Below are positions 1 to 33,157 of a stretch of DNA of 64,000 nt, in pieces (within the stretch, counting starts at the first letter, position 1; the number at the start of each line of letters is the position of its first letter). This DNA is from an uncultured Elusimicrobiales bacterium. GTDB lineage: Bacteria; Elusimicrobiota; Elusimicrobia; Elusimicrobiales; Elusimicrobiaceae. The position numbers were made by a program, and so were the translations under genes. The stretch spans positions 1-64,000 of the forward strand of contig CALUXE010000003.1 of the NCBI GenBank assembly GCA_944324675.1, read 5' to 3'. Under the pieces are notes generated by a model. That model was not told the DNA's origin. It saw only the letters and a program-made list of their open reading frames with translations, and did no database searches.

Positions 1-553
<553 letters not shown>

Positions 554-868
554 ATTGAAGATGTTTAAACACCTAAGTGCTTAAGCATCCGCAACGCTTA
601 ACGAAGATTTGTTGACTTTTGACTCTTTTATTTGTTGTACTTCATTAGAATTAAACGTTGACCTTATATAAGGTATATATAAGTTCATGTTTGAATGTCA
701 CTCGATCGGCTGATACCCCTTGCGGTTGTATCACCCGCTTCAAGTTGCCCATTCGCACATTTGCGATCAAATTTTCAGAGAGCGAAATTCCCTCGTTTAC
801 TTTCTCTTTCGAGAAGTAAATTGGAAATTTTGTCTTCTTTCCCGCAGCCGTTTTTAGGCTACAAGAAT
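554..868 (-). other. 16S rRNA leader (transcribed spacer) with hairpins
   Basis: This stretch lies between the nearest promoter (P1) and the 16S 5' end, so it is predicted to be a transcribed leader of about 310 nt on the minus strand. It holds a hairpin closed by a GAAA tetraloop in the RNA (arms 796-806 and 811-820, one bulge). There is also a short inverted repeat TTAAGC/GCTTAA (581-586/596-601) next to the mature 5' end, and a 12-nt palindrome CCTTATATAAGG (662-673). A weak boxA-like stretch lies near 773-784. Small open frames here have no family resemblance and I do not call them genes. Confidence 0.6.
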
Positions 869-1407
869 ATTTTATAAAATCTTTTTAAGTCTGTCAAGCT
901 TTTTTTGCTTGACCTTTTTAGATGCTTCCAAACATCTCTTGCTGACTACTCTTATATTAAAACAAATTTAATTTATTTTGTCAACTACTTTTTAAAACTT
1001 AAAATCTGTACTAATTTAAAGATCAATCTTGACTACTCTTATATTAAAGCATTTTTGCTTTCTTTTGTCAAGTGCTTTTTTAATGTCTTAAAAAAGCTGG
1101 GCTTATATTTTTGATTACTTATTTATTATAGCATTTGTTTTGAAATCTTGTCAACTCTAATTTTTTGTGACCTAAGTTTCTTTCCTGCTTTATATATTAA
1201 GTATATCTTTTTTATTTGAGCTTGTCAAACTTTTTTTATTTTAACAGCGGCTCGTTCTTGCTACCTTTATAGTATAGCATTAAAGCGAAAAATTGTCAAC
1301 CCCTATTTTATTATTTTTAAAAAGGGTCTTTCTTTACTTCTCTTAAACCGGCTAACCGCCGCGTTTATTATATTATTAGTATAGCACAATTGTTTTTATT
1401 TTGTCAA
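869..1407 (-). promoter_or_regulatory. Array of seven tandem sigma70-type promoters for the rRNA operon
   Basis: Seven minus-strand promoters, each with a perfect TTGACA -35 box, sit head to tail upstream of 16S. The -35/-10 positions are: P1 892-897/869-874 (TAAAAT, spacer 17); P2 979-984/956-961 (TTTAAT, 17); P3 1066-1071/1043-1048 (TTTAAT, 17); P4 1149-1154/1125-1130 (TATAAT, 18); P5 1223-1228/1200-1205 (TATACT, 17); P6 1294-1299/1271-1276 (TATACT, 17); P7 1402-1407/1378-1383 (TATACT, 18). P4, P6 and P7 have TGC just before the -10 (extended -10). Spacing between successive promoters is about 70-110 nt. All point at the rRNA gene, so they are presumably additive. 1408-1559 is very AT-rich and I see nothing else in it. 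Confidence 0.85.
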
Positions 1408-28199: not shown

Positions 28200-29261
28200 T
28201 TATAACCAGCCCGCTTTATATACGGTTAAGGACGAGTACTCTCCGCCGGATTTGAGCAGCGTTGAAGGGAAATCCTTATGGTTGGGGCTGTCGGGGAAAT
28301 GCTGCGTTTCCAAACAAAACGCGCCATGCTCCTTATATATTACCCCCCCTTTTCCCCTATCTTTGCCGTTTAAAAAATTGCAGCTGTAAAAATGCACCGA
28401 AGGCTGATTGGTATAAATATCCAGTCTAAGACCGCTATCCTCATTCTCTACAGAGGCCCCCAAAAATAAATTGCGCCCTTTATATTCGTCGCAGACATAG
28501 CTGTGGTCATAACCTCCGCCGATATTAAGCTGCTCGTTCGCCGCTTTTATATCCGCGCCTATGCTCTTTAAGTTCCTGAAATCAAACGGCGTACCCTCCA
28601 CTTTATCCATACGGCCCAAAGGTATCAAATTCTCGTTTAAAGGCAAATAGCGTTCCGCGTTTATCTGTAATTTATGATTTAACACGTCGCTGCCGTGCGC
28701 GCCCAAATTAAAAAACGCGTGATTTGTTATATTGATAATGCCGTCTTGGGAGCATTGGGCGTAAACCTCAAACAGCAAAGCGTTGTCTTCCGTAAGCGTA
28801 TAAGCAACGTTTATCCCAAACTCGCCGGGATAACCGTCCAAGCCGTCAGGCAAAACACATTCCAAAGCCGCGAAATTATCGCCCGTTTCCGTAAAGGACC
28901 AGACTTGCTCGTTAAGGCCTTTAAATCCGCCGTGCAGATGATTATCCCCATTATTCACGCTTAAATTATATTGTTTGCCGCCCAGCTCGAACCTGCCCCG
29001 CGCGATACGCCCGGCATAGCGCCCTATCACGGCGTTAAAATAACGCTCGTTTGAGCTCTTATAGTTTTCCAAACTGTCATGGCCTATTACGATATCGTAA
29101 AGCCCACCCGCTTTGTTGGGGACTAAAAACGATACTATCCTCGCGCCGTAATTGCTTATTTGCACCTTTACGCCTTTTGAATTTTTTAAAGTCGCCAATT
29201 TGCATTCTTTACCGTCAACATACCCCTTAAAGTCTTCCTCTTTCAAAAGCGATGCCGCCAT
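28200..29261 (-). CDS. galM: Aldose 1-epimerase (galactose mutarotase)
   Basis: 353 residues. Conserved NGDNHLHGGFKGLNEQVW (first catalytic His region), NITNHAFFNLG, YDHSYV and the C-terminal ETQHFPDSPN (ligand binding). It interconverts alpha and beta anomers of hexoses. I start at the ATG at 29261 because GGAGG lies 7 nt upstream. A longer frame starting at 29300 has no such site and an unlikely sequence. Single gene, divergent from the structured RNA unit. Its -10 looks like the extended TGCTACAAT at 29282-29287 (minus). Confidence 0.93.
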   Translation of the reverse strand: MAASLLKEEDFKGYVDGKECKLATLKNSKGVKVQISNYGARIVSFLVPNKAGGLYDIVIGHDSLENYKSSNERYFNAVIGRYAGRIARGRFELGGKQYNLSVNNGDNHLHGGFKGLNEQVWSFTETGDNFAALECVLPDGLDGYPGEFGINVAYTLTEDNALLFEVYAQCSQDGIINITNHAFFNLGAHGSDVLNHKLQINAERYLPLNENLIPLGRMDKVEGTPFDFRNLKSIGADIKAANEQLNIGGGYDHSYVCDEYKGRNLFLGASVENEDSGLRLDIYTNQPSVHFYSCNFLNGKDRGKGGVIYKEHGAFCLETQHFPDSPNHKDFPSTLLKSGGEYSSLTVYKAGWL

Positions 29262-29370
29262 AAAACCCTCCGTATATCGGCATTGTAGCATAAAAAACAA
29301 GTTCTTTGCGTGAAATAAGCCGAAATATTCGGCCTTTATTGCCGCTTTTAAAAATTTTCTTTTTTGGGCC

Positions 29371-29398
29371 TTGACATTTCCTTTTTGGGGCGTATTAT
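29371..29398 (+). promoter_or_regulatory. Promoter of the structured RNA unit
   Basis: Perfect TTGACA (29371-29376), a 16-nt spacer and TATTAT (29393-29398; a TTATAT register with spacer 18 is also possible). Transcription would begin at about 29405, exactly where the first long stem starts. Confidence 0.7.
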
Positions 29399-29404
29399 AT
29401 CTTT

Positions 29405-29788
29405 ACGGGCAGTGATAACAAGAGGGTTCTGAGGGAATGGAACCAGTTCTCACTCCTACATAAGGAGACTGCCCGTTTTGAAAATTTACTGTTGTTTGAC
29501 CGGGTGGTGTTTTCCGGCGGTGCGGTGTTATGAGTGTAGACGCTGCGATGACGTGAGGATGCCGGATGCGGACATAAAATCCCCTGAGCGGGTGTGCGCA
29601 TGAGACGGTCGGACAGTAGGGCCTGATACCGAAGAAGGTGTGGTCCGCCGTTATGGGCGGCGAACGCGAAGGAGAAGGTATCTGCGCCGAGGAGAAGGTA
29701 TGGAGGATAGCTCCAGTTGTAAAAGCGGGCGTTAATCGTTTTAAAGGTAATGGATAATTACAAGGCAACGGTTAAGGCCCGCTTTTTT
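29405..29788 (+). ncRNA. Structured noncoding RNA candidate, family unknown
   Basis: About 380 nt with its own promoter and terminator and no plausible protein on either strand. Stems I can draw: a 9-bp closing stem ACGGGCAGT/ACTGCCCGT (29405-29413/29468-29476) enclosing two hairpins (29425-29430/29439-29444; CTCCT/AGGAG 29453-29457/29463-29467), so a three-way junction; 29522-29529/29539-29546; ATGCG/CGCAT with inner ACA/TGT and CCC/GGG pairs (29566-29601); GGAC/GTCC with an inner ATACC/GGTGT hairpin (29611-29646); CCGCC/GGCGG (29645-29649/29656-29660; shares two bases with GTCC); and TGGAG/CTCCA (29701-29715). The sequence GGAGAAGGTA occurs twice 20 nt apart (29671, 29691), with a near copy at 29631. 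I find none of the hallmark sequences of RNase P RNA, tmRNA or SRP RNA. Confidence 0.7.
29721..29788 (+). terminator. Long terminator hairpin of the structured RNA
   Basis: A perfect 10-bp base stem AAAAGCGGGC/GCCCGCTTTT (29721-29730/29777-29786) continues, after one unpaired G on each side, into TTAATCGTT/AACGGTTAA and then GTAAT/ATTAC. It ends in a T run (29783-29788). It is much longer than other terminators here, so it may be part of the functional RNA. Confidence 0.85.
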
Positions 29789-29917
29789 GCGCCCTTTTAA
29801 CAAGATTTTCTCCGCTGTTTTTACCCGCCAAACCACATTTATAAGAGCAAAACACCCAAAGAAAGCATCCTTCATTAAACGGTCAAGCCCGTGCGCCTTC
29901 CTGCCGTTTCCTTAATT

Positions 29918-29947
29918 AAAAAGCCCCGCCGTAAAGCGGGGCTTTTT
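29918..29947. terminator. Bidirectional terminator before the RND operon end
   Basis: GCCCCGC/GCGGGGC (29923-29929/29936-29942) flanked by A and T runs (AAAAA 29918-29922, TTTTT 29943-29947). It works on both strands, ending the tetR-tolC-RND operon and backing up the RNA unit. 29789-29917 holds nothing else I recognise. Confidence 0.9.
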
Positions 29948-29974
29948 GCCTCAACTAAAAACTTTGGCGGGGGG

Positions 29975-32900
29975 CTAAGCCTCCTGCCCGCTTTTCTTCT
30001 GGCGCAGTATCACTCTCTTTACCCATCCGCCGAAATCGTCAAACAGAGTATACGCCACCGGCGCCATAAGCAAAGTTATCAGCAAAGCCAAGGTCTGCCC
30101 GCCGATTATCACTATGGCCAAACTGCGCCTTAACCCGGATCCCGCGCCCGTACCCAATGCCGTAGGTATCATACCGGCGATAATCGTTACGGTCGTCATC
30201 AAAATAGGGCGCAGCCTTACTTTGTTGGCTTCCATTATGGCTTTATATTTGTCGTATCCCGCATGGCGCAGAGTATTGGTATAATCCACCTGCAATATCG
30301 CGTTCTTGCTTACTATACCCATCAACATGAACATTCCCAATAAGCTGAAAATATTCAGCGTTTCCCCGGTGAAAGCCAAAGTAAGCAGCGCAAACGGTAT
30401 CGTAAGCGGTATCGCCGTAAGAACCACGAACGGATGTACATAACTCTCAAACTGGGCCGCCAATATCATATAAATAAACAATATCGCCAAGGCAAATGCC
30501 ATAATGAAGCTTGACAACATCTTGCCCATTTCGCTCGACTGTCCTTCCAAGCCGGAGGTATAGTTCGCCGGCGCATTCAATTCCTTGAAAGCGGCATCTA
30601 TTATGCTTATGGCCTTGTTCATATCCATATTGCCCGAAGTGTTGGCCTCTATCGTAATCTGCCTCTGTCTGTTCATACGATTGATCTGCGAAGGACCAAA
30701 ACCCTGTTCTATCGTAGCCACGCTGTCAAGGCGGACAAGAACGTCCTCCCCGTTTCGCTTGGCCGGGATCATCATAGAAGAGATAACCTCTTTATTGTTC
30801 CTGTAGTCTTCGTCGGCGCGGACTCTTATTTCGTAAAGTTCGTTGCCTTCCTTGTATTTCGATATATCTTCTTCCCCGCCCACCAGCGTACGCAACGTCG
30901 AGGCAATATCGCTTACCTTCACACCCAAGTCGTGCGCTTTATCGCGGTCGATGGAAACCCTATATTCGGGCTTGGCAAAGTCAAAATCCAAATCCAAATC
31001 TATAATGCCGGGGGTGTCCTTCACCTTATCGTACACCGCATTGGCGTAAGACAAAAGTTCGTTCATGTCAGGGCCGGAAATTACATACTGTATCTTGGCC
31101 ATTCCGCCGCCCGGCGATCCGCTGATAACGAACGCCTGGCTCTTTACGTCGTCATATTTAGCTAGGATATTTCTCGTCGCGTCTATATATTCAAATATAG
31201 AGTAGCCTTTGCCTCTCTTTTTTAAGTCTTCCAATTCCAAAATAAAGTATCCCCTGTTAGTTGAAGAACCCGTGTTGACAATACTGTCGGCCGATACGCC
31301 TATTCCCATAAACATTTTGTCTATAAAAGGCATTTGCTTGAGTTCGCCTTCGACCTGCTTCATAAAAGCGTCCATTTGAGGATAACTCGTACCGTCGGGC
31401 GCCTTAAGGTTTATCTGATATTGCCCGGAATCGTCTTCGGGTATGAAGTCAACGCCGACCATTCCGCCCGCCAATATAAATATCGGCGATATAGCCAGAA
31501 GAACAGATAAAACCACCATCAGCAATTTGTGCCCCATAGCGAACTTAAGGCAGGCCATATAAACCTTGTTTATCGCATTGTTGACGCTGTCTACCATCTT
31601 ATCGGCGCGGGACTTGGCGCGCTCCGCCTTCAGAAATTTGCTGCACAGCATAGGCGTCAAAGTCAAAGCTATTACGCCGCTGATCGTGATGGCATAGGCC
31701 ACCGTCAAACCGTAACTCCTTACGAAACGGCCTACAATGCCCGTCATAAAAGCCAGCGGTACGAAAATTACCACCAGCGAAGCCGTCGTCGCTATTACCG
31801 CAAATGATATTTCCCTCGAACCTTCAATAGCGGCCTGCAGCGCGCTCTTGCCGTATTCCTGCATATGGCGGTGTATGTTTTCAAGCATAATAATGGCGTC
31901 GTCGATAACTATACCCACCGCAACAGTCAGCCCCAGCAGCGTCATATTGTTCAAGGTAAAATCGCTTAAATACATCAAAAAGAACGTACCGATAATTGAC
32001 GTCGGTATAGCCATGGCCGATATTACCGTGGAGCGTAAGTCCCCCATGAACATAAACACCACTATCGCCGCCAAAAACGCGCCCACCACCAAATGCTCCA
32101 TTACCGCGAAGAAAGATTCCTCTATATAACCGGAAGTATCCGATATGGTGTAAATCTCCACGCCCTGCGGCAATAAAGGTTTAATCCTTTCAAGCCTTTC
32201 TTTTATAGCGCTTATTACCGCCAAAGTATTTGTGCCCGATTGCTTCTTGATATTTAAGGAAACGCTCCTCTTCCCATTAATATATGTGGCGCTCCTTTCG
32301 TATTCGCCGGAATCTTCCACGCGGCCGATATCGGATATCTTTATAGGCACGCCGTTTACCGTGGCGACTACGATATCGTCAAAACTCTTTACGCTGTCTA
32401 TACGCCCCAAAACTCTCAAATTAAAGTCGTTGGCGACATTTTCCACGCGGCCGCCCGGGATCTCTATATTCTGCTCCACTATCGCCGATTTCACCGCGCC
32501 GACTGAAACGCCCAAAGACGCCAATTTTAAAGGATTGATTATCACGTGTATCTCGCGCTCGCGGCCGCCGACTATATCCACAGACCCTATGCCGCTTACG
32601 TTTTCGATATTTTCCTTAACCTGCTTTTTTGCAAGCTCGGTCAAGCTGATAATATCCATATCGCCCGTTACCACCACGTTCAATATGGCCGCGGCGCCTA
32701 CGTCCAATTTGGATATTACCGGCGAATCAATGCCGTCTGGCAATTCCTTCTCTATCTTGTTTACGTTATCGCGCACTTCCTGCGCGGCGACGTCGGGGTC
32801 CTTTTCCAAATCGAACTTGATTATGATAAAAGAAGCCCCTTCCATCGTTTGGGAAGTTATCGTGTCTATGCCCGATATTACGTTTACCGCTTCTTCCACC

Positions 32901-33157
32901 TCTTTTGTGATCGAAGTTTCTATTTCCTCCGGGCTTGAGCCCTGCAAAGTAGTCTGTACGGTAACGTAAGGGAAATCCACGTCAGGATACATATCCACGC
33001 CCATGCGGCTGTACCCTATAAGCCCCAGAACTATCAACACCAAAGAGAACATCACCGTGGTTACCGGCCTTCTTATAAATAAGGCCGATATGCCGCCGCC
33101 GATATTGCTTTGGCCGTTTTGTTCCTCGCGTTTAATTGTTTCTTTATTTTCTTGCAT
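29975..33157 (-). CDS. RND efflux pump permease (AcrB/MexB/HAE1-like)
   Basis: 1060 residues, full length. The usual RND layout: a first membrane helix (FIRRPVTTVMFSLVLIVLGLIGY), two large periplasmic loops and twelve membrane segments. The proton-relay Asp pair is present in VGIVIDDAIIMLEN (around 405) and the TM10 Lys in GIVSKNAILQVDY. It drives drug or toxic-compound export with the adaptor and TolC-type channel encoded just upstream. Last gene of a tetR-led operon. Substrates unknown. Confidence 0.96.
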   Translation of the reverse strand: MQENKETIKREEQNGQSNIGGGISALFIRRPVTTVMFSLVLIVLGLIGYSRMGVDMYPDVDFPYVTVQTTLQGSSPEEIETSITKEVEEAVNVISGIDTITSQTMEGASFIIIKFDLEKDPDVAAQEVRDNVNKIEKELPDGIDSPVISKLDVGAAAILNVVVTGDMDIISLTELAKKQVKENIENVSGIGSVDIVGGREREIHVIINPLKLASLGVSVGAVKSAIVEQNIEIPGGRVENVANDFNLRVLGRIDSVKSFDDIVVATVNGVPIKISDIGRVEDSGEYERSATYINGKRSVSLNIKKQSGTNTLAVISAIKERLERIKPLLPQGVEIYTISDTSGYIEESFFAVMEHLVVGAFLAAIVVFMFMGDLRSTVISAMAIPTSIIGTFFLMYLSDFTLNNMTLLGLTVAVGIVIDDAIIMLENIHRHMQEYGKSALQAAIEGSREISFAVIATTASLVVIFVPLAFMTGIVGRFVRSYGLTVAYAITISGVIALTLTPMLCSKFLKAERAKSRADKMVDSVNNAINKVYMACLKFAMGHKLLMVVLSVLLAISPIFILAGGMVGVDFIPEDDSGQYQINLKAPDGTSYPQMDAFMKQVEGELKQMPFIDKMFMGIGVSADSIVNTGSSTNRGYFILELEDLKKRGKGYSIFEYIDATRNILAKYDDVKSQAFVISGSPGGGMAKIQYVISGPDMNELLSYANAVYDKVKDTPGIIDLDLDFDFAKPEYRVSIDRDKAHDLGVKVSDIASTLRTLVGGEEDISKYKEGNELYEIRVRADEDYRNNKEVISSMMIPAKRNGEDVLVRLDSVATIEQGFGPSQINRMNRQRQITIEANTSGNMDMNKAISIIDAAFKELNAPANYTSGLEGQSSEMGKMLSSFIMAFALAILFIYMILAAQFESYVHPFVVLTAIPLTIPFALLTLAFTGETLNIFSLLGMFMLMGIVSKNAILQVDYTNTLRHAGYDKYKAIMEANKVRLRPILMTTVTIIAGMIPTALGTGAGSGLRRSLAIVIIGGQTLALLITLLMAPVAYTLFDDFGGWVKRVILRQKKSGQEA

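Follow-up and report, generated by a model that had tools for sequence, protein, structure and literature searches.

A free-standing structured RNA with a 3′ Shine–Dalgarno–AUG module, detected in a single genus of Elusimicrobiaceae

A contig of an uncultured Elusimicrobiales bacterium, analysed here over a stretch of 64,000 nucleotides (the window), harbours a stand-alone RNA gene at positions 29371–29788 of the plus strand, whose transcript is predicted from the window sequence to be about 385 nt long. The gene is single-copy in its own genome and almost certainly represents, as its type example, a genuine new family of noncoding RNA. At the sensitivity of the sequence searches used, the family is confirmed to be restricted to one genus of gut-dwelling Elusimicrobiaceae. 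The initial annotation of this DNA, made from the letters alone, gave the coordinates of the gene correctly. Three features go beyond it: a 3′ module composed of a Shine–Dalgarno (SD) sequence and an AUG, a boxA-like element, and a size range of 384 to 580 nt within the family.

Promoter and terminator

A scan with the sigma-70 consensus ranks the promoter of the gene as the top-scoring site within 2 kb, with 11 of 12 consensus positions matched (Table 1). The predicted RNA start, at ∼29405, coincides with the first base of helix P1, in agreement with the original proposal of a strong promoter whose transcript begins right at the 9-bp closing stem of a three-way junction. Of the homologues, 13 have an intact 5′ end, and all of these retain both TTGACA and a TATA-type −10 box. 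The RNA ends in an intrinsic terminator whose GGAUA loop is found in 12 of 14 homologues. The description of this hairpin as near-perfect applies to the lower 19 pairs of the stem; the apical part contains internal loops, and the wording was slightly generous. A separate hairpin at 29914–29950 (AAAAAGCCCCGCCGTAAAGCGGGGCTTTTT), strong and G+C-rich with A/T on either side, lies between the RNA gene and convergent acrB and is likely to be a bidirectional terminator.

Table 1. Positions of the features of the RNA gene in the window, and examples of the 63-nt RNA of the sister genus
Feature	Position	Strand	Details
Promoter	29371–29398	+	−35 TTGACA 29371–29376; spacer 16; −10 TATTAT 29393–29398
5′ three-way-junction domain	29405–29476	+	P1 (9 bp, 29405–29413/29468–29476), bulged P2, P3 (CUCC...GGAG)
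BoxA-like stretch	29473–29489	+	CCGUUUUGAAAAUUUAC; directly 3′ of P1
Central domain	29489–29619	+	Closing helix and two hairpin arms, P5 and P6, forming a second three-way junction; type A consensus fold
P5 arm	29506–29563	+	Apical loop UUAUGAgUGUAGA; type A fold; equivalents in every type
P6 arm	29566–29601	+	A-rich 5′ bulge (UAAAAU) below CCC/GGG helix; motif in 14/14
Variable region	29620–29688	+	P7 and GUUAU-loop hairpin in type A; missing from types B, C and D or very different there
SD-like GAGGAG	29689–29694	+	AUG 5 nt downstream
Candidate tiny ORF	29700–29735	+	MEDSSSCKSGR and stop (11 codons); ends inside terminator 5′ arm
Invariant hairpin	29701–29715	+	UGGAG-GAUAG-CUCCA; exact TATGGAGGAWARCTCCA in 14/18 genus genomes
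Intrinsic terminator	29721–29788	+	Hairpin 29721–29786 with GGAUA apical loop, then U-tract; window and type A consensus folds
63-nt RNA, sister genus	L075:2230–2295	−	
63-nt RNA, sister genus	L076:2236–2301	−	
63-nt RNA, sister genus	L080:1037–1098	+	
63-nt RNA, sister genus	L072:1247–1312	+	

Homologues and distribution

One copy of the RNA per genome is present in 14 of the 18 genomes of the genus, including every one of the 11 with a completeness of 90% or more; the four genomes without it are 64–86% complete. BLASTN recovers homologues of 95–96% identity in two species and others of 80% and 75%; in additional species of the genus it finds short matches at the 3′ end. R1, a covariance model built from the 5′ domain, detects 13 of the 18, and one further genome contains a copy broken off at a contig end. 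The same search, run with strict filters that distant forms may escape, gave no matches in 131 other genomes of the order. At the sensitivity used, the suggestion of a lineage-specific family is borne out, the lineage being a single genus.

A scan of 84,980 species returned 13 Elusimicrobia loci, in metagenome-assembled genomes from rumen, gut and other sources, along with five seeming chance matches elsewhere; the RNA was not found in the viral contigs, phages and plasmids scanned. The matches outside the Elusimicrobia (L039, L041, L043, L046 and L047) involve short motifs, are situated mostly in apparent coding sequence and lack the remainder of the RNA, and the same is true of L008, L011–L015 and L030. 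A 23-bit R1 match in the sister genus (L074) is also attributed to chance: it falls on a prepilin-like coding start, and the remaining RNA is absent. In other genera the invariant 17-mer of the 3′ hairpin finds only scattered one-mismatch chance matches.

The homologues form four types: type A, which includes the window RNA, is ∼385 nt long, type B ∼410–425 nt, type C ∼580 nt and type D ∼410 nt. The types are too divergent for BLASTN along most of their length. Common to all of them are the three-way junction at the 5′ end, a central junction bearing a GNRA-type hairpin, and the 3′ module.

Fold and compensatory changes

The plus-strand RNA (386 nt) folds with a minimum free energy of −150.4 kcal/mol and a z-score of −4.68, and none of 100 dinucleotide shuffles is as good. 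As folding is also favourable for the minus strand (z −5.1), the fold alone cannot assign the strand, which is set instead by the promoter, the U-tract and the compensatory changes. Model R1, whose training set excluded the window sequence, matches the window at 29405–29476 with 64.5 bits. Folding types B, C and D independently yields the same architecture of the central domain. In the common plan of the four types, which independent folds and consensus folds made type by type both return, the P5 hairpin loop contains UGA; P6 is capped by a GNRA-type loop in types B, C and D, its motif having been assigned by eye in one type B member (B_L042, GTAAATCCCGTAAGGGTG). Across types the 3′ hairpin reads UGGAG-GAWAR-CUCCA.

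The covariation sets comprise 5–10 related sequences, so that the shuffle control provides no strict probability for the following figures: within type A, both-sided changes affect 13 pairs against 5.6 in shuffles and 1–5 in slid controls, with a covariation of 0.165 against 0.124 shuffled (0/500); in the 5′ domain, compared across all types, they affect 12 cells against 3.8 shuffled, with a covariation of 0.246 against 0.153 (0/500) and far lower values in slid controls. Both-sided changes are seen at four of the nine pairs of the lower P6 helix within type A, at 19 pairs in type C and at nine in type B. Because slid controls are low and the same architecture recurs in divergent types, structural selection is very likely. 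Homologues with compensatory changes, the check proposed in the initial annotation, are thus present, and the changes exceed both kinds of control. RNAalifold predicts, for types B and C, a long-range pairing of the SD with the pyrimidine tract that follows P1; this helix was discarded, its duplex energies being no better than those of shuffles in most members.

The 3′ module

All 14 homologues carry an SD with a duplex energy of −8.2 to −9.5 kcal/mol, spaced about 5–8 nt from the AUG. Both elements stay while the spacer varies in length and bases from type to type, which argues for selection on the two. In each of the 14, the ATG is followed by 8–12 codons and a stop that lies within the terminator's 5′ arm or immediately upstream of it. 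The verdict that the locus has no coding potential consequently stands in part: a search of all frames revealed no long conserved ORF, but an SD–ATG and an ORF of 11 codons are there and are kept throughout. Antisense ORFs of 68 and 121 amino acids were rejected, as they have no Pfam match and are not kept in L044.

With this arrangement the product might be the peptide itself. A dual-function RNA or tiny mRNA, whose structured 5′ region would control an 8–12-residue peptide (ME[DE][NS]S...), is unlikely, yet it is the alternative that survives best. It is favoured by the constancy of SD, start and in-frame stop and by codons 1–4, which change only between D and E or between N and S. It is weakened by a C-terminal half that varies in length and sequence, and by the oddity of an elaborate 300–500-nt leader serving a 9-residue peptide. 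In addition, the start overlaps the invariant hairpin and the first five codons display no synonymous change, all variation being confined to the hairpin loop; for this reason peptide conservation cannot be claimed, and the hairpin may be what keeps the first codons constant. RNAIII and SgrS are dual-function RNAs, structured molecules that also carry an SD and a short ORF. The Elusimicrobiaceae RNA resembles them in these respects, but its ORF spans just 8–12 codons at the extreme 3′ end and there is no homology.

A trans-acting small RNA, whose GGAUA, UAUGA and GUUAU loops would pair with target mRNAs, is a little less probable still. Such a role would suit a free-standing gene with a strong promoter, a rho-independent terminator followed by a U-tract and a widely kept GGAUA loop. 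The RNA is nevertheless built of two multi-branched domains and is extensively structured, with little conserved single-stranded sequence to act as a seed.

Comparison with known RNA families

A scan of the window against Rfam 15 produced nothing at gathering level at the locus, and the window RNA itself matched no model even at E ≤ 5; this was the outcome of the covariance check called for at the outset. At gathering level, members of all types yielded tRNAs only, and at E ≤ 1 a single RNA each of types B and C gave nothing except a chance terminator match. The literature collection consulted contained no paper on Elusimicrobium small RNAs.

The exclusion of RNase P RNA, tmRNA and SRP RNA on inspection of the sequence is supported: none matches at the locus, and the first two are encoded elsewhere. 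The genome has its own RNase P RNA (RF00010) at C4:63597–63922 (189.6 bits) and its own tmRNA (RF00023) at C2:170173–170521, while ARAGORN detects no tmRNA at this locus; SRP RNA was rejected on the lack of any Rfam match at E ≤ 5. The 6S RNA was discarded as well, since P1 and the terminator close separately, no long 5′–3′ helix is formed and RF00013 does not match. A CsrB/RsmZ-type sponge would agree in size, in the presence of GGA in hairpin loops and in the strong terminator, but CsrA (PF02599) was not found in this genome, the E. coli, B. subtilis and T. maritima controls being positive.

The RNA would work at most in the manner of the large ornate bacterial RNAs, and it belongs to none of the families compared. 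ROOL and GOLLD sit near tRNA islands and their function is not known; OLE has been proposed to sequester RpsU (PMC12286853). The Elusimicrobiaceae RNA is comparable to these three in being large, free-standing and multi-branched, in lacking a long ORF and in having tRNA genes nearby. An RNA-only or protein scaffold of this kind, abundant, ornate and possibly multimeric, appears about as improbable as the base-pairing small RNA. The size, the ornate fold and the tRNA genes near types A, B, C and D speak for it. Against it stand the absence of Rfam similarity, a chromosomal, housekeeping context instead of a phage or prophage one, and the smaller size of types A, B and D. Covariance models of ROOL, GOLLD, OLE and the raiA motif matched neither the window RNA (E ≤ 5) nor the examples of types B and C (E ≤ 1), nor members of any type at gathering level. 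A length of 384–580 nt, the boxA-like element together with the SD–AUG, and restriction to a genus further set the RNA apart from ROOL, GOLLD and OLE. The raiA-motif RNA (ModT) is similarly a free-standing, complex and conserved noncoding RNA without a clear function; it differs in its length, 205 nt in the C. acetobutylicum example, in its wide occurrence in Bacillota and in failing to match the Elusimicrobiaceae RNA.

It is highly improbable that the RNA is a divergent SRP or 6S RNA that escapes the Rfam models. The idea draws on the observation that RF00169 (small SRP) and RF00013 (6S) match nothing in the whole 99.7% complete genome, although both models also miss several control genomes, which makes this weak evidence. 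It conflicts with the lack of a helix joining the 5′ and 3′ ends and with the failure of every Rfam model at E ≤ 5. The whole-genome SRP search was based on RF00169 alone, RF01854 (large SRP) having been run only within the Rfam scan of the RNA, and this lineage may have an SRP RNA that has diverged or that belongs to the large type. The absence of 6S RNA says little, because RF00013 also misses the Thermus, Bacteroides and Thermotoga controls.

Gene neighbourhoods

In the window the RNA is flanked by galM (28200–29300, minus strand) and by a convergent gene for an acrB-type pump (29975–33157, minus strand), a setting between two unrelated operons as first described. The type A order is galM, pointing away, then the RNA and convergent acrB, with tRNA-Cys-Gly-Thr-tuf nearby. 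In type D the RNA again faces acrB and the tRNA genes are divergent. Type C RNAs are located between divergent pheST and a same-strand tRNA-Cys-Gly-Thr and tuf cluster, and type B RNAs between a divergent tRNA-Ala and same-strand radC. As promoter and terminator are kept while the neighbours differ between types, the gene is free-standing and the claim that it is not a leader is supported. A constant same-strand downstream gene, the signature of leaders and riboswitches, is not found: this gene varies by type and is convergent in types A and D.

The least likely rival is therefore an attenuator or leader, in which ribosomes on the tiny ORF would block the terminator and allow read-through: the stop codon in or just before the terminator 5′ arm in all types and the same-strand tRNA-Cys-Gly-Thr-tuf (type C) and radC (type B) are compatible with it, but the downstream gene varies between types and, because acrB is convergent, types A and D have nothing to regulate in cis save by antisense.

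BoxA-like element and rRNA-type signals

Directly after P1 the type A RNAs read UUUUGAAAAUUU. The core TGAAAATTT is common to the RNA and to the rRNA leader of its own genome, CGCTCTCTGAAAATTTGAT; it is also found in the rRNA leaders of the sister genus, which read CGCTCTGTGAAAATTTGAC. The RNA thus resembles an rRNA leader, where boxA serves NusB/S10 antitermination, in this core and in its placement at about nt 70–90 of an untranslated RNA; unlike in the leader, the 5′ half, GCTCT, is degenerate. The boxA consensus reported for gamma-proteobacteria is GYTCTTTAANA, and known cases outside rRNA, for example suhB, are mRNA leaders (PMC5725501). The best match falls at one common site in 10 of the 14 RNAs, but single matches in a motif scan are weak (p 0.0025–1): A_L040 agrees at 13 of 16 positions (p 0.0025), the window RNA at 11 of 16 (p 0.15). 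Three type B members have no boxA-like match; GTTCTTT is present at the site in two type B members and in type C. On this sequence evidence, the chances that the element functions as a boxA appear evenly balanced. The GGGCC-TTGACA block in the promoter of the RNA recurs in the sister genus: the distal promoter for rRNA begins with it, and some of the rRNA leaders start from a promoter of this kind.

In the window itself, the rRNA leader that precedes the 16S gene (553–1300, minus strand) contains at least five tandem promoters of the TTGACA/TATAAT type and the conserved boxA (CGCTCTCTGAAAATTTGAT), and is 98% identical in a relative across 1 kb.

A different RNA in the sister genus

The sister genus (g6) harbours a different RNA of ∼63 nt, a three-way junction with its own promoter (GGGAGUGCC...GGCCUCCC-UUUUUU); in those loci whose arrangement was inspected, it adjoins tRNA-Cys/Gly/Thr-tuf. 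It occurs in 54 of 72 genomes of the sister genus (examples in Table 1) and in none of the 18 genomes of the genus of the window, a distribution complementary to that of the ∼385-nt RNA. Four examples have no match in Rfam. Homology between the two RNAs had been suggested by the similar promoters, the tRNA-Cys/Gly/Thr-tuf neighbourhood and the complementary distribution. It is not supported: R1 and R2, the model of the 63-nt RNA, give no cross-hits with filters off, and the GGGCC-TTGA promoter block is common across the family.

Genomes of the sister genus (for example G067, G104, G026 and G111) also contain up to about 10–17 copies each of the motif GGGCCTTGAC[CT]CGTTTTTTTTTTTTGATAAATT. The copies look intergenic and are far more frequent than a reversed-pattern control; the motif may be a repeated promoter-like element or a small repeat family.

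Proposed role and significance

The preferred reading, held tentatively and at slightly less than an even chance, is that of a free-standing, single-copy RNA with rRNA-type expression signals and a 3′ ribosome-docking module. The RNA would be produced abundantly from its strong rRNA-type promoter, and the boxA-like element would load NusB/S10 and thereby shield an untranslated transcript from Rho. With less certainty, the 3′ module may be the working end: the SD, the AUG and the invariant GGAG-GAUAA-CUCC hairpin could mimic a translation start and allow the RNA to dock on the 30S subunit, with the variable 5′ and central domains forming a rigid scaffold or a protein-binding body. Contact with the ribosome through the 3′ module is conceivable, if a shade more doubtful than the reading as a whole, and the module could be kept merely as an RNA hairpin. 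A still bolder version is improbable: that the genus has invented a dedicated 30S-engaging RNA, folded into two multi-branched domains with a permanent mimic of a translation start at its 3′ end, acting as a hibernation, decoy or assembly factor and using the promoter and antitermination signals of rRNA.

Large structured bacterial RNAs of unknown function are few, and every one studied has brought a surprise. The Elusimicrobiaceae RNA changes its length very fast in evolution (384 to 580 nt) while its 3′ module stays fixed; because it unites rRNA-like expression signals with a start site of its own, a role linked to the ribosome can be tested directly. Essentially uncultured, host-associated lineages contain RNA families that are absent from Rfam.
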